64,000 bases of DNA, taken from NCBI RefSeq assembly GCF_016901955.1, contig NZ_JACJLC010000001.1, positions 62,001-126,000 on the forward strand. The letters are read 5' to 3'. The notes under the pieces are model-generated. The model saw only the letters and a list, made by a program, of their open reading frames with translations, searched no databases and was not told the DNA's origin. The position numbers and the translations under genes are program-made. Source of the DNA: Pseudoflavonifractor phocaeensis. GTDB taxonomy: Bacteria > Bacillota > Clostridia > Oscillospirales > Oscillospiraceae. Below are positions 3,173 through 50,094 of this stretch, piece by piece. Position 1 is the stretch's first letter. Every line of letters starts with the position of its first letter.

Positions 3173-4099
3173 TTACAGTTCATCGTTAAGCTGGCGGGTC
3201 AGAGTCTCGTATTCCAGATCGATACTCCGAAAGTAGGATTGCACAAAGTCCCGGAATCGCTTGCCTTGGGCGTTCAGTGGCTTGCGGATGTTGTAGGCGA
3301 TGCCAAAGTAGGCCACTGGGGCTCCATCGGTATAAGGGCGGCATACCAATCCCTCATCCTTACCGGTCAGCACCAGCTCCCGATACTTGATGGCCGGGAC
3401 GATGGAGATGCACCGGTTGAGCTCCACCAGGGAGAGCAGCAGATCCAGATGGCGCACATCGTAGTCGATGATGGGAGTGTTACCCATCTTGCCCTCGGCG
3501 GCGTAAAAGGTATTTTTGTTGACCCGGGAACCGTCGATGGCAAGATGCTCTCCAGCCAACTCATCCCGGCTGAGGCTGGTTCGTTGGGACAGCGGGTTGG
3601 CCTTGTTGAGCAGGAGCATGAACTGACACTCGTACAGCCGCTCAAAGGCCAGGTTTTCTCCGGAGGGCTCCAGCACCGTAAAGGCCAGATCCACTTCCTG
3701 CCGTTCCAGCATGTCGGTAATGGTAGGCAGGTCGGCCCGCTGGTGGTTGAGGATGATATCCGGGTTTTCCAGCAGGAACTGCTGAAGGAGGATGGTGTCG
3801 TCCACCATGCAGGCAATGGACAGAGGCTCACACCGGCCCACGTTGAGGCCACGTACCTCCTGGATGCCCTTGTCCAGGGTGGCCAGGGCCTGCTCCACAT
3901 GGTGCAGGAAGCACTCGCCGCTCTGGTTCAGGATGATCTTGCCCCGGCGGCGCTCAAAGAGGGGGACGCCCACCTCCTCCTCCAGACGGGAGAGGGAGGT
4001 GCTCAGGTTGGGTTGGGAGACAAACATGGTTTCCGCCGCCTTTGACATGTTCCCCAACTGCGCCACGGCGGTAAAGTATCGAAGCTGTGAAAGTTCCAT
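3173..4099 (-). CDS. LysR-family transcriptional regulator of locus 1
   Basis: A 308-residue protein with a standard LysR layout: an N-terminal winged helix-turn-helix (about 1-60, with GNMSKAAETMFVSQPNLSTS as helices 2-3), then a periplasmic-binding-type effector domain (about 90-295). It is divergent from the MFS/DUF362/CoA run at 4290-16140, the classic LysR arrangement, so it is the likely ligand-responsive activator of that run and of itself. The effector is unknown; the substrate or a CoA intermediate of the locus is the natural guess. Confidence 0.9.
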   Translation of the reverse strand: MELSQLRYFTAVAQLGNMSKAAETMFVSQPNLSTSLSRLEEEVGVPLFERRRGKIILNQSGECFLHHVEQALATLDKGIQEVRGLNVGRCEPLSIACMVDDTILLQQFLLENPDIILNHQRADLPTITDMLERQEVDLAFTVLEPSGENLAFERLYECQFMLLLNKANPLSQRTSLSRDELAGEHLAIDGSRVNKNTFYAAEGKMGNTPIIDYDVRHLDLLLSLVELNRCISIVPAIKYRELVLTGKDEGLVCRPYTDGAPVAYFGIAYNIRKPLNAQGKRFRDFVQSYFRSIDLEYETLTRQLNDEL

Positions 4100-4148: not shown

Positions 4149-4289
4149 ATTATATATTTTTCTAATTTACTTGTAAAGGTTATACTGATAATCGCTTCAG
4201 GGCGTTCCGGAACATGGGGCAGAACTTCAAATGCGGGCGCGGGCGGTACCCCCGGCCCAAAGGACTGTGTGCAAAAGGAATGTGAAAGT

Positions 4290-5561
4290 ATGGAACAAAA
4301 CAAGCGAGGTTTCGGAGCCTGGGGTTGGTTTCTGCTGATCTTCGGCTTCCTGATCTTCTTCAGCAACGGCGGTTTCTTCGCCGACGGCACCAATGTCATT
4401 GCCCCCGCCGTGGCCGCCAGACTGAACGTGGATCAGAGCGTGATCTTGGGCATGAACTCCGTTGCCGGTATCATCGGCGTGATCATTGCCCTGATCGCGG
4501 GTCAGGTCAACCAGCGCATCGGTCCCAGTAAGGTGGCGGCCGGCTGCCTGATCCTGGCGGGTCTGGGCCATATCGCCACCGGCAACGCTGTGAGCGTGCC
4601 GATGTACTTAATTGCCATGTGCTGCGTGGGCGGCGGCCTGAGTGCCGGTTCCTTTGTGGGTATTGGCACCCTGGTGGCCATGTGGTTTCCAAAGAAGCAG
4701 GGCCAGGCCATGAGCGTGGTGGCCATGGGCTCCAACTTCGGCACCATGGTTTTCGTCCCGCTGCTGACCGTACTGGTGGGCAGCCTCGGCATCGCCACCA
4801 GCTCCATCATCTGTGGCGCTGTGGCTGTTGTCGTCGGCATCATCGGCACGGTGCTGCTGCGCAACACCCCAACCGAACGGGGCCTCTATCCAGACAACGT
4901 GACCGAGGCTGAGTTCAAGGCCAACTACTCCACCAAGCCCCCCGAGGCCTCTGACGGAGGCTGGACCGTGGGTAAGCTGCTGCGTACCAAGGAGACTTGG
5001 CTGTGCGTGTTCTCTACCGGCCTGCTGATGCTGGTGCAGATGGGTCTGATGACCCAGCTGGTGGGCCGCAACATGGAGGTGGGCATGAGCCAGGCCCTGG
5101 CCACCGGCGTGATGAGCGCCATCGCCGTCATCGGTGTCATCGGCTCTGTGATTTTTGGCCGCATCGTGTTCAAGCTAGGCGTCAAGAAGGCTGGCGTGCT
5201 GACTGGCGGGCTGTATGTAGTGGCCCTGCTGCTTAACATCAGCGGCGTCATGCCTCTGGTGTGGGTATCCCTGGTGATCATCGGATTCCTGGGCGCTGCC
5301 GCCCCCAACCTGATGAATTCCATCCCCGGTTCCGTGTTTGGCCGGGTGGGCTATGCCAAGGTCAACAGCGTGGTTTTCCCCATCACAAGCATCATCTATA
5401 TGTGCAACTTCGCTGTCAATGGCATCGTGCAGAACATATTCCACAGCATCAGCGCCGCGTACGTTGTCTTCGCCGTGCTGTCCTTTATTTCCATCCTGCT
5501 GATCCTGGCCCTGCAGGACCATAAATACGATCAGGACTATATGGCCGCGCACAAGCGGTAA
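4290..5561 (+). CDS. MFS transporter, oxalate/formate-antiporter-like
   Basis: A 423-residue integral membrane protein with about twelve helices and major facilitator features. Examples are the loop after helix 2 (AGQVNQRIGPSK), WFPKKQGQAMSVVAMGSNFG in helix 5 and a repeated domain in the second half (IFGRIVFKLGVKKAG). The best match I recognise is the OFA/monocarboxylate-porter branch, so an organic acid is the likely cargo. I chose the ATG at 4290 (AAGGAA 9 bases upstream) over the in-frame GTG at 4269. It is the first gene of the locus 1 run and lies 31 bases before the DUF362 gene. It probably brings in the acid metabolised by the genes that follow. Confidence 0.82.
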   Translation: MEQNKRGFGAWGWFLLIFGFLIFFSNGGFFADGTNVIAPAVAARLNVDQSVILGMNSVAGIIGVIIALIAGQVNQRIGPSKVAAGCLILAGLGHIATGNAVSVPMYLIAMCCVGGGLSAGSFVGIGTLVAMWFPKKQGQAMSVVAMGSNFGTMVFVPLLTVLVGSLGIATSSIICGAVAVVVGIIGTVLLRNTPTERGLYPDNVTEAEFKANYSTKPPEASDGGWTVGKLLRTKETWLCVFSTGLLMLVQMGLMTQLVGRNMEVGMSQALATGVMSAIAVIGVIGSVIFGRIVFKLGVKKAGVLTGGLYVVALLLNISGVMPLVWVSLVIIGFLGAAAPNLMNSIPGSVFGRVGYAKVNSVVFPITSIIYMCNFAVNGIVQNIFHSISAAYVVFAVLSFISILLILALQDHKYDQDYMAAHKR

Positions 5562-5592: not shown

Positions 5593-6870
5593 ATGAGCAA
5601 GAACTCTACCGTGGCACTGGCCCATGGCAAGGATGCCCAGGAAAACGTCACCCGGGTCTTTGACATGCTGGGCGGCGTGACCAAAATGATCGAGCCCAAC
5701 TCCACTGTGGTGCTCAAGCCCAACGCCGGTCATGCGGCTCCCCCGGAGTACGCCGTATGCACCAGCCCCGACACTGTCCGCGCGGTCATCCGTGAGGTCA
5801 AGAAGGCCAACCCCAAGCGCATCATCATCGCTGAGGCCGCCGCTGTGGGCTGCGACACCATCGAGTGCTACGAGGCCTGCGGCATCGCTGACGTGGCCCG
5901 GGAAGAGGGCGTGGAGCTGGTCGATATCAAGCGGGACAAAGACCTGATCAATGTGGCTGTCCGCGGCTACCGCTCCAACATCAGCCACGTAAAGCTGCCC
6001 CGGCTGCTCATCGAGGCCGAGCACATCATCAACCTGCCCATCCTGAAGGCCCATGCCAGCATGGTGTTCTCCGGTGCTCTGAAGAACATCAAAGGCGTGG
6101 TGCAGGACCAGGTCCACGTGCAGATGCATCAGCAGAACCTGACCATGGCTATGATGGACGTGTGGTGGGCCTGCCGGGCCGACATCAACATTATGGACGT
6201 GATGCATGCTGCCAGCGGCTACTCCCCCCACACCCCCGTGCCCATCGAGGTGGATTGTGTCATGGGTTCCTATGATCCCGTGGCCCTGGACCGCATTGCC
6301 TGCGAGCTGGTAGGCATCGATCCCGACGGCGTGGATTACTTCCGGGTAGCCCAGGAGGCCGGCCTGGGCACCACCGACCGGGACAAGATCGAGGTCATTG
6401 GCGACGATCTGGCCGCCTGCTCCACCAAGATGTGGGTGCCCTATCTGGAGGACATCCGCAGCCGCTGGCCGGAGTACGAGGTCCACTGTGAGGGCGCCTG
6501 CTCCAGCTGTCAGGCTCTGCTCACCCTGAATATGGAGACCCTGAAGGCCATCGGCGTGTATGACGATAATAAGGATCTGGTCATCGTGGCCGGCGGCAAG
6601 AACACCCTGTCCCCCGACACCCCCGACGAGAAGATTATGCTCCACGGCAACTGTGCCCGCAAGCACCTGAAGGATCACCCCAACGCCTTCTTCCTGCAGG
6701 GGTGCCCCCCCGGAGAGGGCTCCCTGTACATGTCCGTCCTCCGCAAGGAGGCCATGACCGGCAAGCCCGAGCAGATGGGCTGGATCCGGGAGCGGATGGA
6801 GATCGACGCCCCCGCCTGGCGTTCCTACGTGGAGAAAGAGGCTGAGAAGTTCTATGGAAGCAAACAGTAA
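5593..6870 (+). CDS. DUF362-family protein with Cys cluster
   Basis: A 425-residue soluble protein matching the DUF362 fold: VVLKPN near residue 43, INLPILKAHASMVFSGALKNIKG in the middle and DPVALDRIACELVG in the second half. Family members are often tied to iron-sulfur chemistry, but no general reaction is established. It adds a C-terminal region with C299-x3-C303-x2-C306 and later single Cys (HGNCAR, QGCPPGEG), which may bind a metal or cluster. AAGGAGG lies 8 bases before the ATG. It sits between the MFS carrier and a small overlapping gene within locus 1, so it may act on the imported substrate; the function is unknown. Confidence 0.75.
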   Translation: MSKNSTVALAHGKDAQENVTRVFDMLGGVTKMIEPNSTVVLKPNAGHAAPPEYAVCTSPDTVRAVIREVKKANPKRIIIAEAAAVGCDTIECYEACGIADVAREEGVELVDIKRDKDLINVAVRGYRSNISHVKLPRLLIEAEHIINLPILKAHASMVFSGALKNIKGVVQDQVHVQMHQQNLTMAMMDVWWACRADINIMDVMHAASGYSPHTPVPIEVDCVMGSYDPVALDRIACELVGIDPDGVDYFRVAQEAGLGTTDRDKIEVIGDDLAACSTKMWVPYLEDIRSRWPEYEVHCEGACSSCQALLTLNMETLKAIGVYDDNKDLVIVAGGKNTLSPDTPDEKIMLHGNCARKHLKDHPNAFFLQGCPPGEGSLYMSVLRKEAMTGKPEQMGWIRERMEIDAPAWRSYVEKEAEKFYGSKQ

Positions 6871-7135
6871 TCAGGGCTACGTGTCCCTGGCCAACGGTCC
6901 GGAGCTGATGAAGCTGCTGGAGGACGTATTCACTGACGAGTTCATGCGGCAGCACACCCGCTTTGACGACTTCGACGGGTTCCGGTTCTCCAGCGCGGTG
7001 ATGGTCAACTGGAAGGCCAACACCATTGTCTACGCCCCTCTGCTGCTCAACAGCTTTGTCAAGGAGAGCACCAACTTTTCCGACTGGGACGAGATGGTGC
7101 GCACGGCGGTAGACCTCCGTTATCATCGGAGCTGA
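6854..7135 (+). CDS. Small protein of unknown function, overlapping the DUF362 gene
   Basis: A 93-residue acidic/aromatic protein (FDDFDGFRFSS, ANTIVYAPLLLNSF) with no membrane segment, Cys motif or domain I recognise. It starts inside the last 17 bases of the DUF362 gene, so translation is probably coupled and the products may form a complex. Codon use matches its neighbours. The C-terminus ends at a TGA 250 bases before the next gene, after which the large hairpin at 7186-7227 occurs. Confidence 0.6.
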   Translation: MEANSNQGYVSLANGPELMKLLEDVFTDEFMRQHTRFDDFDGFRFSSAVMVNWKANTIVYAPLLLNSFVKESTNFSDWDEMVRTAVDLRYHRS

Positions 7136-7385: not shown

Positions 7386-8348
7386 ATGAGACCGGAAGAG
7401 ATCAAGCGGGTCGCCTGTGTGGGCGGCGGCGTCATCGGTTCCAGCTGGGCCATTCAGTTTGCCATGAAGGGTCTGGATGTGACCTTGTACGATATCAATG
7501 AGGAGCAGCTGGCCAAGAGCAAGGCCCAGATGCACAAGAGCCTGGACGCCCTGGAACAGTTCAAGGCTATCACTCCGGAGCGCCGGGCGGAGATCGCCGG
7601 ACAGGTAAAGTTGACTATCTCCATGGAGGAGGCTGTATCCGGTGTCCAGTTCATCCAGGAGAGCGGTCCCGAGCGGTTGGAGATCAAGCAGTCTATCCTG
7701 GCTCAGGTGGAGGAGTACGCCTCCTCTGACGCCATTTATGCCAGCTCCACCTCCGGCCTGCTGGTCAGCGATATTGCCGCTCAGGCCGATCATCCGGAGC
7801 GGTGTGTTGGGGCCCACCCCTACAATCCCCCCCATCTGATTCCCCTGGTGGAGCTGACCTCCGGAGACAAGACTGATCCGGAGCTCCTCCAGACCGCCTA
7901 CGATTTTTATCAGTCCATCGGCAAGGAGGCGGTGCTTCTGCGGAAGGAGTGCCCGGGCTTTATCGCCAACCGGCTCCAGCTGGCCCTCTACCGGGAGGTA
8001 CAGGACCTGGTCATGCGGGGGGTGTGCTCCGTGGAGGACGTAGACAAGGCGCTGGTGTATGGTCCCGGCCTGCGGTGGGCTATCTTCGGGCACAACATGA
8101 TCATGCAGATGGGCAATCCCGGCGGCCTTACCGGCATGGTGCAGATGCTGGGCAATTCCGGCGACCGCTGGCTGGCCGACATGGCCTCCTGGACCCACCA
8201 GCCCGACAACTGGGCGGAAGTGGCTCAGCCCGGGGTAGATAAGGAGATGGCCAACTTCCCCGACTACGTAGGCCACACCAATGAGGAGTGCGCCAAGTAC
8301 CGGGATCAGATGCTCATCGAACTGCTCAAGCTCCACCGGAAGCTGTAA
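7386..8348 (+). CDS. 3-hydroxyacyl-CoA dehydrogenase-family NAD+ oxidoreductase (carnitine/gulonate dehydrogenase-like)
   Basis: A 320-residue protein with an N-terminal NAD-binding Rossmann fold (VGGGVIGSSWA, residues about 12-22) and the 3HCDH C-terminal helical domain. The catalytic block reads GAHPYNPPHLIPLVEL. The HPYNPP form is typical of the L-carnitine dehydrogenase/L-gulonate dehydrogenase/lambda-crystallin branch, which oxidises free beta-hydroxy acids rather than CoA esters. That fits a role in making a free beta-keto acid for the BKACE enzyme of the same locus. AAAGGAGAG lies 8 bases upstream of the ATG. A paralogue is encoded at 50925-51845 beside the second BKACE gene. Confidence 0.85.
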   Translation: MRPEEIKRVACVGGGVIGSSWAIQFAMKGLDVTLYDINEEQLAKSKAQMHKSLDALEQFKAITPERRAEIAGQVKLTISMEEAVSGVQFIQESGPERLEIKQSILAQVEEYASSDAIYASSTSGLLVSDIAAQADHPERCVGAHPYNPPHLIPLVELTSGDKTDPELLQTAYDFYQSIGKEAVLLRKECPGFIANRLQLALYREVQDLVMRGVCSVEDVDKALVYGPGLRWAIFGHNMIMQMGNPGGLTGMVQMLGNSGDRWLADMASWTHQPDNWAEVAQPGVDKEMANFPDYVGHTNEECAKYRDQMLIELLKLHRKL

Positions 8349-8360: not shown

Positions 8361-9590
8361 ATGGATCTCTCTGCTGTACATACTTCCTTTACCCGGCGGC
8401 GCTGGGTGTGTCTTATCGCCGCCATGGTCATTTGTGTGTGTGCCGGCTTCGGCTACGCCTGGAGTGTGCTCCAGAACCCCATTATCACCCGCTTTGGCTG
8501 GGCTGACTCCGGCGTGGCCTTAGCCTACACCATCACGGTGCTGTGCTCCACCATGGCGCCGCTGATCTTCGGAGGGGTGATCCGCCGGCTGTCCACCCGA
8601 CTTGGGGTGGTGGTGGGAGCGGTGCTCTTCGGGGTGGGCCTCTTCCTCACCGGGCTGATGACCCAACTCTGGCAGCTCTACCTGTTTTACGGCGTGATCG
8701 CCGGCCTGGGGGTGGGCTTTATCTACCCCAGCATGATGGCCTATGTGGTGCGGCTCTTCCCCGACCGGTCGGGCATGGCCTCCGGCCTGGGCACCGCCGC
8801 CTACGGCTCCGGGGCCATCCTGTGGGCCCCCACCGCCGCCGCCCTCATGGAGGGGGTAGGCATGACCCGGGCCTTTCAGGTGCTGGGCGTTCTGTTTGCG
8901 GCGGTGATCCTGGTGGGCTCCCTCCTGCTGGCCGATCCTCCCGAGGGATTCCAGACCGCTATGGCCCCCAGCCCAAACGGCACCCAGGGGGGGATCTCTG
9001 ACCTCCGCCGGGGGCAGATGGTGAGGACAGGCACCTTCTGGATCATGGTGATCGTTTTTACCTGTGGCCTGGTGGCTGGGGTCATCGTTATCAGTCAGGC
9101 ATCACCCATTCTCCAGCAATCTCTGGGCTACTCCTCTGCTACCGCGGCAATTTTCGTCAGCGTGTTTTCCGCCTGTAACATGGCGGGTCGATTCCTGTGG
9201 GGGAGCTTGTCGGACAAGCTGGGACTGGTAAACACCGCCGGCGCGGTCTTTCTGCTGTGCATACTGTCCATGGGCCTGCTGGCCGTGGTGGGTGCTGAGG
9301 TGCCGGTGCTGATACTCATGGGGGTGGCCGCCTCATGCTACGGAGGGCTGGCCTCCATCCTCACCCCACTTACCGCCAAAACCTTCGGGCCCCGGTACAT
9401 TACTGAAAACTACGGAGTGATGTACGTGGTGTTCGGCCTGGCCAGTCTCATCGGACCTAGCCTGGCCACTACCTTCAAGTCTATGGCAGGCGGCAGCTAT
9501 ACCGGCGCCTACCTCACCGCCGCAGTGCTGGCGGTGGTAGGGCTGATCCTCTCCCGCTTTTTGAAACCTGTAACCTCCAAAGGAGAATGA
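8361..9590 (+). CDS. MFS transporter, second carrier of locus 1
   Basis: A 409-residue protein with about twelve helices. It has the MFS duplicate-loop motifs GGVIRRLSTRLG (first half) and RFLWGSLSDKLGLVNTAG (second half), plus YPSMMAYVVRLFPDRSGMASGLG, again closest to the oxalate/formate-antiporter branch. It starts 12 bases after the dehydrogenase stop, with GGGAGG before the ATG, and ends one base before the CoA-transferase start. It is therefore embedded in the catabolic operon. Having two OFA-like carriers in one run suggests substrate uptake plus product export or exchange. Confidence 0.85.
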   Translation: MDLSAVHTSFTRRRWVCLIAAMVICVCAGFGYAWSVLQNPIITRFGWADSGVALAYTITVLCSTMAPLIFGGVIRRLSTRLGVVVGAVLFGVGLFLTGLMTQLWQLYLFYGVIAGLGVGFIYPSMMAYVVRLFPDRSGMASGLGTAAYGSGAILWAPTAAALMEGVGMTRAFQVLGVLFAAVILVGSLLLADPPEGFQTAMAPSPNGTQGGISDLRRGQMVRTGTFWIMVIVFTCGLVAGVIVISQASPILQQSLGYSSATAAIFVSVFSACNMAGRFLWGSLSDKLGLVNTAGAVFLLCILSMGLLAVVGAEVPVLILMGVAASCYGGLASILTPLTAKTFGPRYITENYGVMYVVFGLASLIGPSLATTFKSMAGGSYTGAYLTAAVLAVVGLILSRFLKPVTSKGE

Positions 9591-9591
9591 C

Positions 9592-10245
9592 ATGGAACTG
9601 AGTAAAGTACGTACCATCGAGCAGATCGTGGCCAGCTTCAAGGACGGCCAGATCATTGCCATCGGCGGCCAGACCAACCATTATATGCCCGAGCGGCTGA
9701 TCCAGTGCGTGCTGGACAGCGGTGCCAGGCATCTGACCGTGTATTCCATCGACTCCAGCGATCCCAATATGGGGGTCAGCCGACTTATCGAGGCGGGGGC
9801 GGTGGACAAGATGATCACTACCCACGTGGGCACCAACCCGCTTACCAATGTCCGCATCCAGAATGGCTCCTTGAAGGCGGAACTCATCCCTATGGGTACC
9901 TTCATCGAGCGCATTCGCTGCGGTGGCATGGGCCTAGGAGGCGTGCTTACCAAGACCGGCCTGGGTACCGTGGTGGAGGAGGGCAAGCAGATCATTGAGG
10001 TAGACGGTCAGCAGTATCTGCTGGAAACTGCCCTCCATGCCGACGTGGCTCTTACCCGCTGCCGCAAGGCTGATCCCCTGGGCAATTTGGCCTACCGGGG
10101 GAGCAGCGGACACGCCTCCCACCCGGTCATCGCCACCTGTGCCGACCTGTCCATCGTGGAGTGCGATCACTTCTGCGACCTGGGAGAGATCGGCCCAGAC
10201 GAGGTCAAGGTGCCCGGTATGTTCGTGGATATGATCCTGGTGTAA
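9592..10245 (+). CDS. 3-oxoacid/acetate CoA-transferase, subunit A
   Basis: A 217-residue CoA-transferase family I alpha subunit. The CoA-binding Gly-rich stretch GGMGLGGVLTKTGLGT and the tail block LHADVALTRCRKADPLGNL are both typical (AtoD/ScoA-like). It pairs with the subunit B gene 15 bases downstream. The likely reaction is transfer of CoA from an acyl-CoA to a keto acid. Next to BKACE and thiolase genes, the obvious acceptor is acetoacetate, giving acetoacetyl-CoA. It begins one base after the MFS stop, with AAAGGAG inside the end of the MFS gene. Confidence 0.88.
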   Translation: MELSKVRTIEQIVASFKDGQIIAIGGQTNHYMPERLIQCVLDSGARHLTVYSIDSSDPNMGVSRLIEAGAVDKMITTHVGTNPLTNVRIQNGSLKAELIPMGTFIERIRCGGMGLGGVLTKTGLGTVVEEGKQIIEVDGQQYLLETALHADVALTRCRKADPLGNLAYRGSSGHASHPVIATCADLSIVECDHFCDLGEIGPDEVKVPGMFVDMILV

Positions 10246-10260: not shown

Positions 10261-10911
10261 ATGGACAACAGAAACTTTATCGCAAAGCGGGCTGCCGCCT
10301 ACTTCCAGCCCGGCGATGTGGTCAACCTGGGCATCGGTATCCCCAGCCTGTGCGGCAGCTACGCCGTGGACGGGGTGTTCTTCCAGAGTGAGAACGGCTT
10401 TATCGGCATCGGTCCTACTGTGAAGGAGGGGCTGATGAAGACCGAACGCTTTGTCAACGCCGGCGGCATCCCCTTTATCCCTGTGCCTGGCGCAAGCGCC
10501 TTTGACGTAGCTATGTCCTTCGGGGTGATTCGGTCCGGCCGGCTGGCTGCCACCGTGCTGGGCGGCCTTCAGGTGTCCGCCAAGGGCGATTTGGCCAACT
10601 GGGCCTCTCCAGGCCGGGCCTTTGGCATGGGAGGCGCCATGGACCTGTGTAACGGCGCCCGGAAGGTGATCGTGGCTATGGATCTGGTAACTAAGAACGG
10701 TGCGCCCAAGGTGGTCAACCAGTGTACCATGCCCCTCACCGCCATCCACTGTGTGGACCACATTGTCACCGACCGCTGCGTCATCGACGTGACTCCGGAG
10801 GGGCTGCTGCTCTCCGAGATCCGCAAGGGTCACACTGTGGAGGAGATCCAGGCGGCGGTGGAACCCACCCTTCTGGTGGCTCCCAATCTCATTGAAATGG
10901 AGGAAGACTGA
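10261..10911 (+). CDS. 3-oxoacid/acetate CoA-transferase, subunit B
   Basis: A 216-residue beta subunit. The catalytic glutamate that carries CoA is Glu44 in QSENGFIGIGP, matching the SENG motif of AtoA/ScoB/Ctf proteins. VNLGIGIPSL and the GAMDLCNGARKVIVAMDL block are also typical. It has GGAGGAGG 7 bases before the ATG, and its 3' end carries the ribosome site for the thiolase gene, so the three are one unit. With subunit A it should activate acetoacetate released by the BKACE reaction. Confidence 0.9.
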   Translation: MDNRNFIAKRAAAYFQPGDVVNLGIGIPSLCGSYAVDGVFFQSENGFIGIGPTVKEGLMKTERFVNAGGIPFIPVPGASAFDVAMSFGVIRSGRLAATVLGGLQVSAKGDLANWASPGRAFGMGGAMDLCNGARKVIVAMDLVTKNGAPKVVNQCTMPLTAIHCVDHIVTDRCVIDVTPEGLLLSEIRKGHTVEEIQAAVEPTLLVAPNLIEMEED

Positions 10912-10912: not shown

Positions 10913-12085
10913 ATGGCAAGACCTCTGAGCAAAACTGTGGTAGTGGCTTATGGCCGCTCCGCTGTGGCAAAATCCGGAAAGAAAGGCGCTCTGCGGGAAC
11001 TTCACCCCATCGATATGGGTGGACTGGTGCTGAAGGGGGTAATGGAGAAGATCCCCCAACTGGATCCCGCCATGGTGGAGGACGTGATTCTGGGCTGCGC
11101 CATTCCCGAGGCCAAGCAGGGCCTCAACCCCGCCCGTCTGGTGGCCGCCCGTGCCGGCCTGCCCTACACCGCCTGCGGCCTCACTGTGGATCGGTTCTGC
11201 GCCTCCTCTCTTCAGGCTGTGGCCCTGGCCGCCTGGCAGATTGAGGCCGGCCAGGCTGACTGCATTGTGGCCGGTGGCATCGAGTCCATGACTGCCCTGC
11301 CCATGACCCTGGATCGGAGCGGTGACCGGGACCCCTGGCTGGTGGAGCACGATCCTGCTCAGTACATCTCCAACGGCGAGACCGCTGAGAACGTGGCCGA
11401 GAAGTACAATGTCACCCGGGAGGAGATGGACGCTCTGGCCCTGGCCAGCCATCAGAAGGCAGCCCACGCCCAGGACGCCGGTTACTTTGACGAGCAGATC
11501 ATCCCCTTGCCCGGGGTGGACGCCGAGGGCAATCCCATTGTTTTTGACAAGGACCAGGGTATCCGTCGGGACACCACCCTGGAGAAGATGGCATCCATGA
11601 AGCCCTGCTTCAAAGTGAATGGCCGGGTCACCGCCGCCACCTCCTCCCAGACCAGTGACGGCGCCGCCTTCCTGGTGCTCATGAGCCGGGACAAGGCCGC
11701 CCAGCTGGGCATTCAGCCCCTGGCCTCCTTCCTGGGCTTCTGTGTGGGCGGTCTGGACCCCGCTTACATGGGACTGGGCCCCATCTACGCCGTGCCCAAG
11801 GTGCTGGAGTACACCGGCCTCACCGCTGATGATATGGACGTCATTGAGCTCAACGAGGCCTTTGCCGCCCAGGTGAGCCCTTGTATCAAGGAGCTGGGGC
11901 TGAACCCTGAAAAGGTTAACCCCAACGGCGGTGCCATGGCCCTGGGCCACCCCCTGGGGGCCACCGGTGCAGTGCTCTCCTGCAAGGCCATCTCTGAGCT
12001 GCGGCGCACCGGCGGCAAGTACGCTATGGTGACTATGTGCATCGCCGGCGGCATGGGCGCCGCCGGGATCTTCCAGGCGGAATAA
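10913..12085 (+). CDS. Acetyl-CoA C-acetyltransferase (thiolase)
   Basis: A 390-residue thiolase. The nucleophilic Cys96 lies in DRFCASS, the active-site His block is GHPLGATGA and the second catalytic Cys is in MCIAGGMGAAG near the C-terminus. The length is normal for the biosynthetic/degradative thiolase II family. I use the ATG at 10913 (GGAGGA 8 bases upstream) instead of the in-frame TTG at 10892, which lies within the CoA-transferase gene. It would split acetoacetyl-CoA, or a longer 3-ketoacyl-CoA, to acetyl-CoA and so regenerate the acetyl-CoA used by BKACE. Paralogue at 51842-53032. Confidence 0.9.
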   Translation: MARPLSKTVVVAYGRSAVAKSGKKGALRELHPIDMGGLVLKGVMEKIPQLDPAMVEDVILGCAIPEAKQGLNPARLVAARAGLPYTACGLTVDRFCASSLQAVALAAWQIEAGQADCIVAGGIESMTALPMTLDRSGDRDPWLVEHDPAQYISNGETAENVAEKYNVTREEMDALALASHQKAAHAQDAGYFDEQIIPLPGVDAEGNPIVFDKDQGIRRDTTLEKMASMKPCFKVNGRVTAATSSQTSDGAAFLVLMSRDKAAQLGIQPLASFLGFCVGGLDPAYMGLGPIYAVPKVLEYTGLTADDMDVIELNEAFAAQVSPCIKELGLNPEKVNPNGGAMALGHPLGATGAVLSCKAISELRRTGGKYAMVTMCIAGGMGAAGIFQAE

Positions 12086-12134: not shown

Positions 12135-13151
12135 ATGGGTAAGCCTTTGGCTGATTACGTGAAACTCCCCCAGCTGGATGAGTACAAGGAGTGGTTCAAG
12201 GATTTTGCCGACCTGTACCGGGAGGACGGCATTCTCCAGGTTACCTGGAAAACCAACGATGGTCCTATGCACCACAGCGGCATGTCCCACCGGGCCATCA
12301 GCCAGCTGGTGCGCATCCTTTCCCTGGACAACCAAAACGAGATCATCATCTTTACCCACATCGGCGACAGCTGGATGACCGAGTCCGATCCCAACGGCTG
12401 GGATACCTACTCCAAGCTGCCCACCGAGCGGTTCCAGCATCAGTATTTTGACGACACCAATCTCATCAAGAACATGGTATTTGACCTGGACGTACCCACC
12501 ATCGGCGTGCTGCCCGGCCCCGGCTTTCACTGGGACTCCGCCATGCTCAGCGACGTGACCATCTGCTCCGACGATACCTGGATTGAGGTCCCCCACGCCC
12601 ACGGCGGTCTGGTGCCCGGCGACGGCATGGGCTTGATGGCCCAGCACTACTTCGGCACCAAGCGGGGCAACTACTATATGATGACCGCCCGCCAGTGGAC
12701 CGCTCAGCAGATGCTGGACTGGGGCATGGTCAGCGAGGTGGTGCCCAAGGACCAGGTCATGGCCCGGGCCTGGGAGATTGCCCGGATGTGGAAAACCATG
12801 CCCTATGAGAACCGTACCATCATGTCCAACCTGGCCAAGCGGCCCCTGAAAAAGCTGCTGGTGGACGATCTGAAGCTGCACACCGTGTCCGAGCAGTACG
12901 GCTCCCTGCTGCGCATCGCCGCCGGCGATATGGGCGACCGCAACGCTGCCCAGCAGGACGAGAAGTACATCAGCCAGACCAACGACTGGCGCTATTGCCA
13001 CGACTGGATGCAGCAGCCTCCCACCCGGGAGAGTTGGGCCGGGTTCCGCACCAAGCCCATCGAGTGGTTCAAGGAAGTGGAGGCCGGCCGCGAGGTTAAT
13101 CCCTTTGATCCCAGCCGTCCCGTTAAGCCATACCGCCCCGACGAGAAATAA
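12135..13151 (+). CDS. Crotonase-superfamily beta-diketone hydrolase, 6-oxocamphor hydrolase-like (copy 1)
   Basis: A 338-residue crotonase-fold protein. The core VPHAHGGLVPGDGMGL, then GTKRGNYYMMTARQ and WGMVSEVVPKDQV...RAWEIAR, matches my memory of Rhodococcus 6-oxocamphor hydrolase, which cleaves a cyclic beta-diketone by retro-Claisen hydrolysis. Its reported active-site residues His45, His122, His145, Asp154 and Glu244 line up with His52, His132, His154, Asp163 and Glu253 here. It is about 80 residues longer than that enzyme, with an extra N-terminal stretch and a Trp/Pro-rich C-terminal tail. GGAGG lies 8 bases before the ATG at 12135. An ordinary enoyl-CoA hydratase is less likely because the usual paired acidic residues are not evident. 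The alignment is from memory. Confidence 0.72.
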   Translation: MGKPLADYVKLPQLDEYKEWFKDFADLYREDGILQVTWKTNDGPMHHSGMSHRAISQLVRILSLDNQNEIIIFTHIGDSWMTESDPNGWDTYSKLPTERFQHQYFDDTNLIKNMVFDLDVPTIGVLPGPGFHWDSAMLSDVTICSDDTWIEVPHAHGGLVPGDGMGLMAQHYFGTKRGNYYMMTARQWTAQQMLDWGMVSEVVPKDQVMARAWEIARMWKTMPYENRTIMSNLAKRPLKKLLVDDLKLHTVSEQYGSLLRIAAGDMGDRNAAQQDEKYISQTNDWRYCHDWMQQPPTRESWAGFRTKPIEWFKEVEAGREVNPFDPSRPVKPYRPDEK

Positions 13152-13192
13152 GGACCGGTTTGCCGAAAGAATAGATACAGGAGGTTACGATC

Positions 13193-14206
13193 ATGGGAAA
13201 GCCTATGGCTGATTACGTAAAGCTGCCCGAGTTTGACGAATACAAAGAGTGGTTCAAGGATTTTGCTGATCTGAAGCGGGAGGACGGCATTGTGCAGGTC
13301 ACCTGGAAGACCAACAACGGCCCCATGCACCACAGTGGTATGTCCCACCGGGCCATGAGCCAGCTCACCCGCTGGCTGAGCCTGGACTATAAGAACGAGA
13401 TCATCATCTACACCCATATCGGCGACAACTGGATGATCGAGTCCGATGCCAACGGCTGGGAAACCTACTCCAAGCTGCCCACCGAGCGGTTCCAGCACCA
13501 GTATTTTGACGACACCAACCTGATCAAGAACATGATCTTTGACCTGGACGTGCCCACCATCGGCGCCATCCCCGGCTCTGGCTTCCACTGGGATTCCGCC
13601 ATGCTGTGCGACATCACTCTCTGCTCCGAAGATACCAAGATGGAGGTGCCCCACGCCCAGGGCGGCCTGGTACCCGGCGACGGCATGGGCCTGATGTGCC
13701 AGCACTACTTCGGCACCAAGCGGGGCAACTACTACATGATGACCTCCCGCCAGTTTACCGCCCAGCAGATGCTGGAGTGGGGCATGGTCAACGAGGTCCT
13801 GCCCAAGGGCAAGGTGCTGGAGCGTGCCTGGGAGATCGCCCGGATGTGGAAGACCATGCCCTATGAGAACCGTACCATCATGTCCAACCTGGCCAAGCGC
13901 CCCCTGAAGAAGCTGCTGATGGAGGACCTGAAGCTGCACACTGTCAGCGAGCAGTACGGTTCCCTGCTGCGCATCGCTGCCGGGGAGCTGGGTGATGAGA
14001 ACTCCGCCCAGCAGGACGAGAAGTACATCAGCCGTGTCAACGACTGGCGCTATGCTACCTGCGATATGGAGGAGCCCCAGACGGCCGAGTCCTGGCGCAC
14101 CATGCCCAAAAAGGCTACCGAGTGGTGGCAGAAGGTCAAGGCTGGCGAGATTGAGAATCCCTATGTGTTTGAACACAGCAACGAGCCTGAGGACTACGAA
14201 TTTTGA
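13193..14206 (+). CDS. Crotonase-superfamily beta-diketone hydrolase, 6-oxocamphor hydrolase-like (copy 2)
   Basis: A 337-residue tandem paralogue of the previous gene, nearly colinear over its first 290 residues. It has the same putative catalytic set (His52, His132, His154, Asp163, Glu253). It differs mostly in the tail after about residue 290 and at scattered positions lining the core: GSGFHWDSAMLCD against GPGFHWDSAMLSD, and VPHAQGG against VPHAHGG. AGGAGG lies 8 bases before the ATG. Retention of both copies with an intact catalytic set suggests a hetero-oligomer or two related substrates or stereoisomers rather than a decaying duplicate. Confidence 0.72.
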   Translation: MGKPMADYVKLPEFDEYKEWFKDFADLKREDGIVQVTWKTNNGPMHHSGMSHRAMSQLTRWLSLDYKNEIIIYTHIGDNWMIESDANGWETYSKLPTERFQHQYFDDTNLIKNMIFDLDVPTIGAIPGSGFHWDSAMLCDITLCSEDTKMEVPHAQGGLVPGDGMGLMCQHYFGTKRGNYYMMTSRQFTAQQMLEWGMVNEVLPKGKVLERAWEIARMWKTMPYENRTIMSNLAKRPLKKLLMEDLKLHTVSEQYGSLLRIAAGELGDENSAQQDEKYISRVNDWRYATCDMEEPQTAESWRTMPKKATEWWQKVKAGEIENPYVFEHSNEPEDYEF

Positions 14207-14299: not shown

Positions 14300-15184
14300 A
14301 TGGCAAAGACCATCATTACCGCTGCCCTCACCGGCGCCGTTACTCCCGCGGGCTACAAGATCCCTGAGACCCCTCAGCAGATTGCCGACGAGGCCTATGA
14401 TGCCTGGAAGTTGGGCGCTGCCGTGGTCCATCTGCACATGCGGGCCGACGACGGCCTGGGCGCCATGGACAAGGAGAAGTTCCGTGAGACTATCCGCCTG
14501 ATCCGCAGCCATAAGGACTGTGATGTCATCATCAACTGCACCTCCTCCGGCGCCTCTCCCCAGCACCCCGCCACCGACGAGGAGCGCATGGCCCACCACA
14601 AGGAGTTGGCCGGTATCGAGATGGGCTCCTACGACGCGGGCTCTTTCAACTGGATGCCCGGCGGCGTATTCCTCAACACTCCCCAGTTCCTCCAGCAGCT
14701 GGGCGACGTGTATATGGAGAAGGGCACCAAGCCGGAGATCGAGATCTTTGACGCCGGTATGCTGGGCGTTGCCGACTACTTTGTGAAGAAGGGCCACCTG
14801 CCCACACCCTGCCACTATCAGTTCTGCCTGGGCGTGCTGGGCGGCATGCCCGCCACTGTGGAGAACCTGCTCTACCTGGTCAATCACATCCCCGCCGGTT
14901 CCACCTGGTCCGCCTTTGGCGTGGGCAAGGGCCATCTGCCCATTATGTTCGCGGCGCTGGCCCTGGGCGGCCACATCCGTGTAGGCATGGAGGACAACGT
15001 GGTCTTCGGCGTGGACGAGAACGGCAAGAAGATCATGGCCACCAACCACATGCTGGTGGAGCGGGCTGTGGCCGCTGTCAAGGCCTTCGGCAACACCCCC
15101 GCCACCCCCGCCCAGGCCCGTGAGATGTTAGGTATCCCCGCCTTTGACGGCCAGAAGGTGCGCTCCGCCCTGGGGATCGACTGA
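14300..15184 (+). CDS. BKACE, beta-keto acid cleavage enzyme (DUF849), copy 1
   Basis: A 294-residue TIM-barrel protein of the BKACE/Kce family. Signatures are ITAALTGAVTP at the N-terminus, the metal-binding H44-x-H46 in VVHLHMR, INCTSSG, IEIFDAGM and GGHIRVGMEDN, whose acidic residue completes the Zn site. Family enzymes condense a beta-keto acid with acetyl-CoA and release acetoacetate plus a new CoA thioester. That matches the adjacent CoA-transferase and thiolase genes. AAGGAGCTG lies upstream of the ATG. Specificity (3-keto-5-aminohexanoate, dehydrocarnitine, triacetate or other) cannot be read here. A close paralogue is at 49225-50094. Confidence 0.9.
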   Translation: MAKTIITAALTGAVTPAGYKIPETPQQIADEAYDAWKLGAAVVHLHMRADDGLGAMDKEKFRETIRLIRSHKDCDVIINCTSSGASPQHPATDEERMAHHKELAGIEMGSYDAGSFNWMPGGVFLNTPQFLQQLGDVYMEKGTKPEIEIFDAGMLGVADYFVKKGHLPTPCHYQFCLGVLGGMPATVENLLYLVNHIPAGSTWSAFGVGKGHLPIMFAALALGGHIRVGMEDNVVFGVDENGKKIMATNHMLVERAVAAVKAFGNTPATPAQAREMLGIPAFDGQKVRSALGID

Positions 15185-15186: not shown

Positions 15187-16140
15187 ATGTACATCCAGAG
15201 CGTATTGGGTCCGGTGGACACGGCGGAGCTGGGGCAGGTGCTGATGCATGAGCACATCAGCTGCGCCGACTGGTCTATGCGGATGAACTTTGGCCCCCGA
15301 TTCTATGAAGAGGACAAGGTGCTGGAGATGGCCCAGGGGATGCTGGGCAAGGCGGCGGCTATGGGAGTGCGCACCGTGGTGGACGGCACTCCGGTGAATC
15401 TTGGCCGGGACATCCATCTGATCCGGGAGACCGCCCGTCGCACCGGTCTGAACCTCATCGCTTCCACCGGCTTCTACTACCAGGAGGAGCCCTGGCTGGC
15501 CTTCCGGGAGGAGGAGCAGATCTATGACCTGCTGATGGGGGACTGTACCGACGGCATCCAGGGTACCGACAGCAAGCCGGGCATCCTGAAAGCCGGGGTG
15601 GGCCGGGCAGGCATCACGCCCCTCCTCCAGAAGATCCTTCACGCCACCGGCCGGGTGGGAGCCAGGACCGGTCTGCCCGTATTCTGCCACCACGACCCCT
15701 CCATTTGCAACGGCGGGGAGATCCTGGATCTGTTTGCCAGCTGTGGCATGTCTCCCAACCGGGTCATCCTGGGCCATAGCGGCGATACCACTGACCTGGG
15801 CTATCTCACCGCCATGCTGGAGCGGGGCTGCTGGCTGGGCATGGACCGCTTTGGTTTCTGCGACCGGGACCTGGGGTTGGAGCCCCGGGTGGACACCATC
15901 GCGGCGCTGTGCGAGAGAGGGTGGGGGCATCGCCTTCTCCTCAGCCATGATCTGGCGGCCTATCTGGCTTTCTGGGACAGCTGGGAGACCACCAAGAACT
16001 GCGACTACCTCAACCTGGAAGAGGACTTCACCTTCATCCACCGGCGGGTGCTCCCCGCCCTGAAGGAGCGGGGCCTGGAGCCCGCCGCGGTGGACAGTAT
16101 GCTCACCGCCAACCCCAGAGCGTTTTTTGAAGGGAACTGA
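15187..16140 (+). CDS. Phosphotriesterase-family metal hydrolase (lactonase-like)
   Basis: A 317-residue amidohydrolase-superfamily protein of the PTE/Php branch. Metal-site elements are visible in order: H21-x-H23 in LMHEHIS, a Lys in GILKAGVG that would be the carbamylated bridge, CHHDPS, LGHSGDT and the catalytic Asp in LLSHDLA. The family includes lactonases and amidases; true organophosphate activity is unlikely. It starts 2 bases after the BKACE stop and is the last gene of the run before a strong terminator. A lactone- or ester-opening step on the same substrate is the likely role. Confidence 0.82.
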   Translation: MYIQSVLGPVDTAELGQVLMHEHISCADWSMRMNFGPRFYEEDKVLEMAQGMLGKAAAMGVRTVVDGTPVNLGRDIHLIRETARRTGLNLIASTGFYYQEEPWLAFREEEQIYDLLMGDCTDGIQGTDSKPGILKAGVGRAGITPLLQKILHATGRVGARTGLPVFCHHDPSICNGGEILDLFASCGMSPNRVILGHSGDTTDLGYLTAMLERGCWLGMDRFGFCDRDLGLEPRVDTIAALCERGWGHRLLLSHDLAAYLAFWDSWETTKNCDYLNLEEDFTFIHRRVLPALKERGLEPAAVDSMLTANPRAFFEGN

Positions 16141-21882: not shown

Positions 21883-23025
<1,143 letters not shown>

Positions 23026-23162
23026 AATGCAGCACTCCTTATTACTGAGGGCAGCGGGCGGTCCGGAAACCGGCGGAAGGGTGAAGGGGAGGGGCGAGGG
23101 GACGCCCCGGCCGGGTGGGCGCCGGCGGCAGCCGCCGCTGTCCGATGGGTGGTGGAGGGAGC

Positions 23163-24167: not shown

Positions 24168-24181
24168 ATTGCACGCCTCCC

Positions 24182-24988: not shown

Positions 24989-25010
24989 AGCAAAGCTCCT
25001 TTCTCAGCGC

Positions 25011-26432: not shown

Positions 26433-26496
26433 ACTGTAGAACCTCCTCCAATATTCGCATCAGGTTTGTTGATTTGTATGGATCCTGAAACGGGGC

Positions 26497-27771: not shown

Positions 27772-27810
27772 CTGGATTACCTCCTTGGTCTGTGGTGGTG
27801 TGCATCGGAT

Positions 27811-27821
27811 TGGTGTGACCA
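27811..27821. promoter_or_regulatory. FadR/LldR-type operator in the larA leader
   Basis: TGGTGTGACCA is an exact TGGTnnnACCA palindrome, the core bound by FadR and LldR regulators. It lies 40 bases before the larA start and just downstream of the predicted promoter, a position suited to repression. Confidence 0.6.
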
Positions 27822-27836
27822 CTTTTTACTGACAAC

Positions 27837-27864
27837 ACTTTATCACACTTTCGGAAAATTGCAA
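27837..27864 (-). promoter_or_regulatory. Candidate promoter of the larA/lactate dehydrogenase/etf operon
   Basis: On the minus strand TTGCAA (27864-27859), a 16-base spacer, TAAAGT (27842-27837). It is the best match in the 27772-28144 intergenic region, which has no gene of its own. Confidence 0.4.
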
Positions 27865-27953
27865 TCCCCAGTTTGCATTTTCTCACAAATGCCCAAAAAA
27901 CAAGAGGGCGTTTTGACGTATTGACGATTTTAATCTGTGTAGTAGAAAAAAGA

Positions 27954-47767: not shown

Positions 47768-49192
47768 ATGAATCAGCAAACAGAGATAGCGGGCAAGCCG
47801 GCCGTGAATATCAATAAAATATCCTGGCTCTACTTCATCGCGCTCACCTGCCAAATGATCGGCAACTCCGTCATCAATTCCTTCGTATCCTTCTATGCCA
47901 CAGAGCGGCTGCTGCTCAGTGCGGCGATGATGGCGGGCATCCTCACTGCCTCCCGGGTTTGCGACCTGGTCATCGGCACTTTGAGCGGTCTGGTGGTACA
48001 GAAGGTGTGTCCCCGGTTCGGCCAGTACCGCTCCTGGCTGCTCTATGGTCCGTTGATGGTGTCGATTGGCTCCACGCTCTGCTTCATTAACCTGGACGTG
48101 CCCATGGGCGTAAAGCTGTTCATGGTGTTCATCGGCTATATTGGCTACGGTACCGGCATGAGCTTTGTCCAGCTGGGACAGAACGGTCTGATCCCCAAGA
48201 TCGCCGGCGCTGACGGTAGGGCCAGACAAAAGATCGCCTCCCGTATTACCCAGGGACAGAACGTGGCCCGGCTGCTATCCTCCGCCATGCTGGTGCCCAT
48301 GGTGCTTTTCTTTGATTCTCTGGGCAAGGTGGACGGCTATACCATGGTGCAGATCATCTTCTCGGTCATCGCTCTGGTAGGTCAGGCATTTCTCTTCGTG
48401 GCCCTGCGGGAAGTGGACAAGTATGATCCCCACTTCAAGGCCGAGGGCATGGGCGGCAGTGTGAAAATCACCAAGATCCTAAGCACCGCCGTCACCAACA
48501 GTCAGTTGCTTATCCTGCTGCTGTCTGACGTGATCCGTTTTACCGCCATGCAGGTCATTTCCGCTCTGGGCGCTTACTATTTCACCTATGCCACCGATAA
48601 TTACAGCATGCTGACGGTGTCTATGACGGTGCAGGGCTTTGCCTCCGCGGCAGCGGCGTTCCTCTGCCCTCCCTTCTCCCGAAAGATCGGTAAGAAGAAC
48701 TCCGCCATTCTGGCCGGGCTGGGCTGTATGCTCCCCATGATCTACCTGGGCTTCTTCTCCGGCGGGTCCTGGCTGGTGTACATCATCTGCAACAGCATTG
48801 CCCAGTTTACCTTCGTCATCCTGGCATGCAACGGACCCACCCTTTATATTGACGCCGGTGAATACCAGCTGTATAAGACCGGCGTGGACAACCGTACCTT
48901 CGTGACCTCCATTTTTGGCATCGCCTCCAAGTTCTCCTGGATCTTCGTGGGCGGCCTCACCGCCGTGGTGCTCATTGGCTGCGGCTATGATGAGGTCAAC
49001 AAGACGGTGGCGGACGTGGATATGATGATCAAGCTGGTGGGCGGCTTGCCCGCCGCCATGTTCCTGGTGTTCACCCTGCTGATGGCCTTCGGCTATCGCC
49101 TCAGCGAGGACCGGGTCAAGGTGGCCTATGAGGCCAACATTAAGACCATGCAGGCCCGGGCAGACGCCGCCGCGAAAAACGATAAAGGTTAA
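47768..49192 (+). CDS. MFS carrier of the GPH (glycoside-pentoside-hexuronide:cation symporter) type
   Basis: A 474-residue protein with about twelve helices. The Asp-containing first-half loop (SRVCDLVIGTLSGLVVQK), the GQYRSWLLYGP motif and the VALREVDKY linker point to the MelB-like GPH branch. However, the Asp-rich sugar/Na+ motif is only partly kept, so the cargo may not be a sugar. The ATG at 47768 has GGAGG 7 bases upstream. It is first in the locus 2 run and the counterpart of the MFS carriers of locus 1. Confidence 0.8.
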   Translation: MNQQTEIAGKPAVNINKISWLYFIALTCQMIGNSVINSFVSFYATERLLLSAAMMAGILTASRVCDLVIGTLSGLVVQKVCPRFGQYRSWLLYGPLMVSIGSTLCFINLDVPMGVKLFMVFIGYIGYGTGMSFVQLGQNGLIPKIAGADGRARQKIASRITQGQNVARLLSSAMLVPMVLFFDSLGKVDGYTMVQIIFSVIALVGQAFLFVALREVDKYDPHFKAEGMGGSVKITKILSTAVTNSQLLILLLSDVIRFTAMQVISALGAYYFTYATDNYSMLTVSMTVQGFASAAAAFLCPPFSRKIGKKNSAILAGLGCMLPMIYLGFFSGGSWLVYIICNSIAQFTFVILACNGPTLYIDAGEYQLYKTGVDNRTFVTSIFGIASKFSWIFVGGLTAVVLIGCGYDEVNKTVADVDMMIKLVGGLPAAMFLVFTLLMAFGYRLSEDRVKVAYEANIKTMQARADAAAKNDKG

Positions 49193-49224: not shown

Positions 49225-50094
49225 ATGAATAAAACCATTATTACTGCGGCGCTTACCGGCGCCATTACACCGCCGGGCTACCAAATCCCGGAGACTCCTC
49301 AGGACATCGCTGAGACCGCATACCAGTGCTGGAAGCTGGGAGCGGCGGTGGTCCATCTGCACATGCGGGACGAAAACGGTATGGGCGTTATGGATCCGGA
49401 GCGGTTCCGGGAGACCATCCGGCTCATCCGTGCCCATGAGGACTGCGACGTCATTATCAACTGCACCTCCTCCGGCGATCACCGGGTGTCCGACGACAGC
49501 GATTACGGCAACGGCAGGCGGATGGAGCACCACCGCACGGTGGACGGCATCGAGATGGGAACCTTTGACGCGGGAAGCTTCAACTGGGGCGTGCCGGGCG
49601 GCATCTTCTGCAACAGCCAGAAGTTCCTCATGGATCTGGGGAAGCTATACCAGGAGCGGGGCATCAAGCCGGAGATCGAGATCTTTGATGCCGGCATGAT
49701 GCGGGCGGTATCCGCCTATGTGAAAAACGGCACCTTGAAAGCGCCCCTCCACTTCCAGTTCTGCCTGGGGGTACTGGGCGGCATGGGAGCCACTCCCGCT
49801 GAGCTGCAATATCTCATCGACCAGTTGCCCCCGGGCTCCACCTGGTCGGCCTTTGGCATCGGCAAGGGGCATATGCCCATCCTTTTCTCCGCCCTGGCCA
49901 ACGGCGGCCACATTCGGGTGGGCCTGGAGGACAATGTAGTCTACGGCGTGGACGAAAACGGCAACAAGATCATGGCGACCAACCAGATGCTGGTGGAACG
50001 GGCAGTCCGGGCGGTGCGGGCCTATGGCAATGAGGTGGCTACCTCCGCCGAAGCCCGGCAGATCCTGGGGCTCAAGCCGCTGGTCAGGTCATAA
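49225..50094 (+). CDS. BKACE, beta-keto acid cleavage enzyme (DUF849), copy 2
   Basis: A 289-residue paralogue of the locus 1 BKACE with the same signatures: ITAALTGAITP, H44-x-H46 in VVHLHMR, INCTSSG, IEIFDAGMM and GGHIRVGLEDN. The main differences are an insertion after INCTSSG (DHRVSDDSDYGNGRRM in place of a shorter loop) and a shorter C-terminus. That loop borders the substrate site in the family, so specificity probably differs. It follows the carrier by 32 bases and precedes the SDR by 21. Confidence 0.9.
   Translation: MNKTIITAALTGAITPPGYQIPETPQDIAETAYQCWKLGAAVVHLHMRDENGMGVMDPERFRETIRLIRAHEDCDVIINCTSSGDHRVSDDSDYGNGRRMEHHRTVDGIEMGTFDAGSFNWGVPGGIFCNSQKFLMDLGKLYQERGIKPEIEIFDAGMMRAVSAYVKNGTLKAPLHFQFCLGVLGGMGATPAELQYLIDQLPPGSTWSAFGIGKGHMPILFSALANGGHIRVGLEDNVVYGVDENGNKIMATNQMLVERAVRAVRAYGNEVATSAEARQILGLKPLVRS

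Follow-up and report, generated by a model that had tools for sequence, protein, structure and literature searches.

We suggest that two adjacent crotonase genes of the gut bacterium Pseudoflavonifractor phocaeensis encode the ring-opening enzymes of an anaerobic pathway resembling that of phloroglucinol degradation, by which plant phenols become short fatty acids. They lie in a stretch of 64,000 nt of assembly GCF_016901955.1 (contig NZ_JACJLC010000001.1, positions 62,001-126,000 of the forward strand), hereafter the window, whose own positions serve as coordinates. An initial annotation had claimed two crotonase open reading frames at 12135-14206, and both are found there on the + strand: OCH1 (12135..13151, 338 aa, ATG at 12135), a crotonase resembling 6-oxocamphor hydrolase (OCH) and beta-diketone hydrolase, and its paralogue OCH2 (13193..14206, 337 aa). 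Judged from sequence and a modeled structure, their enzyme class is near certain, and sequence, fold and active-site residues all lend good support to their prediction as CoA-independent cyclic beta-diketone hydrolases (retro-Claisenases). A phloroglucinol-like class of pathway is likely. That OCH1 and OCH2 open a six-membered cyclic 1,3-diketone by CoA-independent retro-Claisen hydrolysis in such a pathway, with OCH crotonases replacing the cyclase DPGC, is the reading we prefer, with somewhat better than even confidence. It builds on the observed family, fold, residues, gene neighborhoods and co-occurrence, from which we infer every reaction step and the substrate.

Active site and fold of OCH1 and OCH2

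In phmmer searches against the PDB the best match is the Anabaena beta-diketone hydrolase (ABDH, alr4455; 2j5g, E 3e-32), followed by OCH (1o8u, E 1e-28; 1szo, E 7e-28), and the next family, hydroxycinnamoyl-CoA hydratase-lyase, reaches only E 2e-7. The likeness to OCH and the Anabaena enzyme is far beyond chance. Structure prediction with superposition on OCH, which the initial annotation had proposed as a check of its alignment through the OCH core, was carried out and bears that alignment out. The AlphaFold2 model of OCH2 (mean pLDDT 86.8) has OCH as its best fold match (1o8u and 1szo, Z 29.9; rmsd 1.6 over 238 residues), then ABDH (2j5g and 2j5s, Z 28.6), with enoyl-CoA hydratases at 26.1 or below; Foldseek agrees with this ranking.

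The five active-site residues named beforehand (His52, His132, His154, Asp163 and Glu253) stand at exactly these positions in both proteins and align with His45, His122, His145, Asp154 and Glu244 of OCH, as counted from the phmmer and family alignments. They are invariant in all 69 full-length rows, OCH1 and OCH2 included, that remain of an 85-row family alignment once 16 rows shorter than 310 aa are dropped. When remote members are added (34 sequences), His132, His154, Asp163 and Glu253 are still invariant and His52 is kept in at least 90%. The catalytic residues D153, H144, E243 and H43 of ABDH, as given in the excerpted text of PMC3584854, also have counterparts, E243 lying just beyond the aligned stretch.

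The window proteins thus share with OCH the fold and all five active-site residues and have ABDH as top sequence match. They differ from OCH in sequence (27% identity), in a C-terminal extension of about 75 residues and in their anaerobic operon, and from ABDH in sequence (31% identity in the structural alignment) and in the same extension, absent from its chain of 263 residues. Extensions had been claimed at both ends: the C-terminal one stands, mostly well predicted and partly conserved, whereas the N-terminal one shrinks to about 6 residues, query residue 15 aligning with OCH residue 9. A remote OCH-like subfamily, 34-37% identical and without the long C-terminal extension, is seen at L085:8841-9689, L091:8162-9064, L095:3369-4247 and L098:7420-8280.

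Could OCH1 and OCH2 instead be ordinary CoA-dependent enoyl-CoA hydratases or isomerases of a beta-oxidation run? Their Pfam ECH_1 matches and their neighbors, a 3-hydroxyacyl-CoA-dehydrogenase (3HCDH)-family dehydrogenase, a thiolase and a CoA-transferase, would suit such a role. However, the sequences are much nearer, and the fold nearest, to CoA-independent hydrolases, and the NCBIfam crotonase models among the matches listed (best 25 of 48 and 56 shown) fall far under their cut-offs. A beta-keto acid cleavage enzyme (BKACE), which is not an enzyme of beta-oxidation, is also encoded next to them. Catalytic Glu144 and Glu164 of the CoA-dependent enoyl-CoA hydratases are absent from both copies, where Asp134 and His154 occupy the respective columns; on account of this replacement of Glu164 by His a plain beta-oxidation pair was rejected, and we regard the hydratase/isomerase explanation as a whole as very improbable. 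In two ordinary crotonases encoded in the same genome, the Asp163 column holds Phe and the Glu253 column Glu. Glu253 is therefore not diagnostic, and on alignment it is His52, His132, His154 and Asp163 that discriminate the OCH type from ordinary crotonases.

The two copies

OCH1 and OCH2 are 79% identical across residues 1-324. In an 80-row tree a separate clade (28 rows, SH-aLRT 99), with two Actinomycetota among its members, holds OCH1, and the remainder is of OCH2 type. Half of the wholly searched genomes (9/18) have a single OCH match at E 1e-30. Single-match genomes include Olsenella profusa and Propionibacterium australiense (OCH1 type) and a Treponema metagenome-assembled genome (OCH2 type), of unstated completeness, as well as G078 and G125, each 100% complete and with one OCH1-type match apiece. 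Since some genomes have only OCH1 and others only OCH2, each copy can do without the other, and an obligate OCH1/OCH2 heteromer was rejected.

OCH2 is split into two pieces in different frames in Flavonifractor plautii ATCC 29863, and only its C-terminal piece is left in Flavonifractor AGMB03687; OCH1 is intact in both. In four Oscillospiraceae metagenome-assembled genomes (L015, L016, L018, L019) OCH2 follows directly upon what look by eye like the L13 and S9 ribosomal protein genes. An OCH1-type gene is found at another place in two of these assemblies (L059 for L015, L037 for L019), and the assembly of L016 has no second match.

The ring-hydrolase slot

According to the excerpted text of PMC10470551, the anaerobic phloroglucinol pathway of Clostridium scatologenes consists of PGR, DPGC, TfD, TAL, a thiolase and a CoA-transferase (CtfAB). 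DPGC is a Mn-dependent cyclase doing the retro-Claisen ring opening, TAL is a BKACE, and TfD is annotated as a 3-hydroxyacyl-CoA dehydrogenase. The window likewise holds a 3HCDH-family dehydrogenase, a BKACE, a CoA-transferase and a thiolase within one operon, and pairs of a cupin gene and a short-chain dehydrogenase (SDR) gene occur in both kinds of cluster. In contrast to the phloroglucinol pathway, however, the slot of the Mn-dependent cyclase is occupied in the window by the unrelated OCH-type crotonase, and the SDR linked to OCH in other genomes reaches only some 33% identity with the PGR homologue. Within the window's own genome, the cyclase family PF04199 is confined to contigs C191 and C270, apart from the window's contig. 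On C191 (L083:7597-11805) a cupin, a PGR-like SDR, a TfD-like 3HCDH protein, a DPGC-like cyclase and a TAL-like BKACE stand in a row, which we read from these homologies as an ordinary phloroglucinol cluster.

A scan of genome contigs with six peptide patterns (one genome per species, 84,980 species) found 68 OCH loci, mostly in Oscillospiraceae, Lachnospiraceae and unplaced Clostridia, and 43 of them have pathway partners in the available flank. Counted over all 68, these are BKACE at 22, the dehydrogenase at 21, thiolase at 17, CoA-transferase AB at 15 and another CoA-transferase type at 14; SDR is found at 15, cupin at 11, an acetoacetate-decarboxylase-like (ADC-like) protein at 7, (methyl)malonate-semialdehyde dehydrogenase (MMSDH) at 4 and DUF362 at 15.

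The SDRs connect these loci with others that lack OCH. Of the 52 rows of their tree, 33 group together (SH-aLRT 94): 15 have OCH in the same stretch, 7 have a cyclase matching DPGC at 27-34%, and 11 have neither (one of these, L111, carries a cyclase that shares 68% identity with the L104 one). Homologues of pyrogallol hydroxytransferase (PGTH) are present in 5 of the 7 cyclase loci (L102, L104, L105, L108, L115; the L104 query matches PDB 4v4c at E 8e-251), and none lies within the stretch taken at L103 and L110. Most cyclase-type clusters also contain dehydrogenase, BKACE and thiolase genes. OCH adjoins the related reductases at L010, L012, L021, L029, L033, L044, L050, L051 and L088. At L086 and L087 a DPGC paralogue (68-69% identical) takes the hydrolase place; a cupin-SDR pair lies near the DPGC paralogue in G075 and G151, its SDR grouping with that of a second operon of the window (SH-aLRT 91). 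G054 (locus L085) shows an SDR-OCH-thiolase-BKACE-dehydrogenase run in which the OCH is remote (34%). Locus labels such as 'PGR (26-28%)' denote nearest matches only. Unrelated enzymes thus occupy the ring-hydrolase slot while the gene context stays similar; this is our main argument for the proposed function.

Beside BKACE genes at L102, L104, L105, L106, L108, L109, L111 and L115 there are PGTH homologues with large and small subunits, some in two sets, and in most of these loci a cyclase and a dehydrogenase are nearby. Such clusters are perhaps an undescribed trihydroxybenzene route of their own. Phloroglucinol and pyrogallol genes in soil are treated without a crotonase in the excerpted text of PMC12203004.

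The BKACE pocket

At the Glu14 position of the lysine-fermentation BKACE, the exception that sets TAL apart, TAL carries Trp16 (PMC10470551, excerpted text). Among BKACE rows of 250-400 aa, to which the comparison was limited, those with PGR and DPGC homologues (>60%) in the stretch have Trp here (4/4), those with OCH have Val, Ile or Met (21/21), and those with both a member of the OCH-linked SDR group and a cyclase have Gly or Ala (6/6). The other rows are Val at L061, L092 and L094, Ile at L084 (the window's second BKACE again) and Gly at L093, L097, L106, L109, L111 and L113. Eight further BKACEs come from OCH genomes; seven have Val, and the eighth, beside a transhydroxylase homologue, has Gly. 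The window's own two BKACEs carry Val and Ile, and that of the C191 cluster carries the Trp of TAL. From these residues we infer parallel pathways with different side chains, and the position seems to be a sequence marker that separates three of them.

This bears on whether dihydrophloroglucinol itself is the substrate of OCH1 and OCH2, which would then be a metal-free counterpart to the ordinary DPGC. The downstream genes do match the phloroglucinol pathway, and phloroglucinol genes are present in the genome. Against this stand the Val, Ile or Met of the linked BKACEs in place of the Trp of the triacetate enzyme (PMC10470551), the cupin-PGR-TfD-DPGC-TAL homologues already present on C191 and the low identity of the linked SDR to the PGR homologue, which together leave this alternative improbable. 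Since the OCH-linked pocket differs from that of TAL and the genome has an ordinary phloroglucinol cluster, the substrate of OCH1 and OCH2 is probably another cyclic diketone, not dihydrophloroglucinol itself.

Co-occurrence in family genomes

An OCH match at E 1e-30 is present in 18 of 200 family genomes. Two of these, G026 and G042, were set aside for the low identity of their matches (36-37%), and 16 were kept as OCH genomes. Window-type BKACE (E 1e-90) is present in 15/16 OCH genomes and in 2/184 others, the exceptions being G054 (OCH without this BKACE) and G032 and G047 (the reverse). Counted by genus the contrast is 10/11 versus 2/95, and it recurs inside genera g1 (where G182 lacks both), g14 and g36. 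BKACE-family genes in general occur in 16/16 OCH genomes and in none of 14 named control genomes, which are unrelated organisms and not OCH-less relatives. PGTH homologues (E 1e-100) are found in 10/16 OCH genomes and 45/184 others, and DPGC in 6/16 and 30/184.

Several points weigh against the proposed phloroglucinol-like pathway. The Fisher tests of the BKACE contrast (p 1e-19 by genome, p 2e-11 by genus) ignore relatedness, and the union 'PGTH or DPGC' (14/16 OCH genomes versus 52/184) was formed after both counts were seen. No pathway partner lies in the available flank of 25/68 loci, several of these flanks being short. The OCH-linked SDR (E 1e-60) is not associated with OCH (5/16 versus 41/184, p 0.53); in G033 and G163, however, the cut-off failed to catch SDRs (57% identical) that lie less than 3 kb from a window-type BKACE. 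Among the scanned genes of the window's OCH operon there is no SDR or PGR, and the second operon, which has an SDR, is tied to the first by homology only. PGTH homologues flank related SDR/BKACE clusters of family genomes, but at E 1e-100 PGTH is absent from the window's genome and from all six OCH genomes with the full window-type operon (G000, G022, G069, G078, G118, G125). The ten OCH genomes that do bear it mostly have OCH away from such an operon. The transhydroxylase therefore bears on related clusters and not directly on the OCH operon. DPGC is present in 4/6 of the full-operon genomes.

The same retro-Claisen chemistry could also serve a diketone made from an alicyclic polyol (inositol, deoxyinositol or a quinate-like compound), oxidized and dehydrated by other enzymes; the SDR would then be an oxidizing enzyme like gluconate 5-dehydrogenase, and the product a deoxy-keto-hexonate. 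The OCH-linked SDR indeed scores best with the gluconate 5-dehydrogenase model, below its cut-off (215 versus 279 bits), and also matches PDB 1vl8. Classical inositol degradation uses a CoA-acylating MMSDH, and such an enzyme is in the cluster at four loci. A GPH sugar-type symporter in the second operon and the lack of PGTH in full-operon genomes fit as well. However, the inosose dehydratase IolE is over its cut-off in only 4/200 family genomes, in none of the 16 with OCH and in 4/184 others, and on this ground the classical myo-inositol pathway was rejected. In addition, the related SDRs adjoin PGTH homologues and cyclases, and PGTH or DPGC is found more often in OCH genomes than in the others. 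A polyol origin is thus unlikely, though the most serious of the alternatives. The initial annotation had left the diketone as terpenoid, polyphenol-derived or alicyclic. Gene logic and PGTH beside related reductases favor the polyphenol-derived option, short of proof. A terpenoid substrate was rejected: no gene among those scanned, which are part of the window's genes, points there.

The OCH operon of the window

Gene calls rest on a simple composition score, so that starts and some small genes are approximate. All neighbors claimed beforehand (dehydrogenase, CoA-transferase, thiolase, BKACE and lactonase-like hydrolase) are present by Pfam and NCBIfam. A divergent LysR-type regulator (3173..4099, - strand) is followed, all on the + strand, by an MFS transporter (4269..5561), a DUF362 protein (5593..6870), which is a recurrent OCH neighbor, and a 93-aa open reading frame with no Pfam match (6854..7135). 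The latter two genes (gene clusters 5 and 6) occur at the same 16 loci, the window included. Next come the 3HCDH-family dehydrogenase (7386..8348, 320 aa), for which we propose a TfD-like role and which has 33% identity to this genome's own TfD homologue, an MFS transporter of lactate/oxalate-formate type (8361..9590), CoA-transferase subunits A (acetate/3-oxoacid type, 9592..10245) and B (10261..10911) and the thiolase (10913..12085, start from the gene caller, scanned from 10916), these five being assigned by Pfam and NCBIfam. Downstream of OCH1 and OCH2 are the BKACE with Val at the Glu14 position (14300..15184; PF05853, E 1e-87) and a metal hydrolase like phosphotriesterases and lactonases (15187..16140; PF02126, E 1e-60; best PDB match 4if2, E 2e-54).

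The dehydrogenase raises one more alternative, in which it would oxidize a 3-hydroxy acid such as carnitine, BKACE would cleave the 3-keto acid and the OCH pair would serve some unrelated, auxiliary function. BKACEs act on dehydrocarnitine, and among the models that the dehydrogenase matches, PRK06129 (256 bits) is followed by those for carnitine dehydrogenase (211 and 204 bits), each below its cut-off. However, this leaves unexplained both the co-occurrence of OCH with window-type BKACE (15/16) and the exchange of OCH and cyclase, and we consider it the least probable explanation of all.

Elsewhere in the window, 21883-29698 encodes an acyl-CoA dehydrogenase, EtfAB, a FAD-linked oxidase and an L-lactate permease, presumably an electron-bifurcating locus for lactate use. 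A gene for a molybdoenzyme of the xanthine-dehydrogenase family lies at 31158-33443 and a piece of aldehyde ferredoxin oxidoreductase at 44429-45532.

The second operon

About 31 kb beyond the OCH operon a second one (47768-55777) is found, entirely on the + strand. It encodes a GPH-type cation symporter (47768..49192), the second BKACE, with Ile at the Glu14 position (49225..50094), an SDR (50116..50910), a second 3HCDH-family dehydrogenase (50925..51845), a second thiolase (51842..53032), a PduL-type phosphotransacylase (53029..53625) and an iron-sulfur/NAD(P) oxidoreductase (53642..55777). The SDR is 51% identical to the OCH-linked SDR of Flavonifractor AGMB03687 and 32% to the PGR homologue of its own genome. 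The nearest relatives of its BKACE (69-72%) and thiolase (60-63%) belong to the OCH clusters L029, L032, L033, L034 and L047. Because these relatives sit in OCH clusters of other genomes, the second operon may supply the reductase step.

Proposed mechanism

Step 1: A polyhydroxybenzene would be reduced, or a related ring oxidized, by an SDR to a hydroxylated cyclohexane-1,3-dione. In the window this SDR is perhaps that at 50116-50910; in other genomes it would be the one next to OCH.

Step 2: OCH1 and OCH2 would add water to the diketone and cleave a ring C-C bond, with the formation of a 3-hydroxy-5-oxo acid.

Step 3: The 3HCDH-family dehydrogenase would oxidize the 3-hydroxyl, and BKACE would then cleave the resulting beta-keto acid with acetyl-CoA to an acyl-CoA and acetoacetate (step 4). 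Finally, CoA-transferase and thiolase might convert acetoacetate to acetyl-CoA (step 5).

At L010, L012, L050 and L051 another downstream set is present, consisting of the ADC-like protein, whose lysine motif aligns with decarboxylases, and the CoA-acylating semialdehyde dehydrogenase MMSDH. This set would suit a retro-aldol reaction in which that same 3-hydroxy-5-oxo acid yields malonate semialdehyde.

Implications

What we propose amounts to anaerobic ring degradation of the phloroglucinol type in which OCH-type crotonases open the ring. Among the papers listed by searches of open-licence PMC articles (no preprints), none connects, by its title and the start of its abstract, an OCH-type protein with anaerobic or gut catabolism. 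With a chance that we put just short of even, this would add to the phloroglucinol route and the transhydroxylase-linked cyclase route a third, parallel way of opening polyhydroxylated rings without oxygen, with metal-free OCH-type crotonases in place of Mn cyclases cleaving a cyclic 1,3-diketone. Its carriers would be gut relatives of Flavonifractor, Intestinimonas and Coprococcus, and Olsenella and Propionibacterium would share the enzyme. If our preferred reading is right, it marks out a gut-bacterial pathway, OCH-type crotonases gain a role in anaerobic gut catabolism, and unrelated enzyme families solve the ring-opening step in the same gene context.

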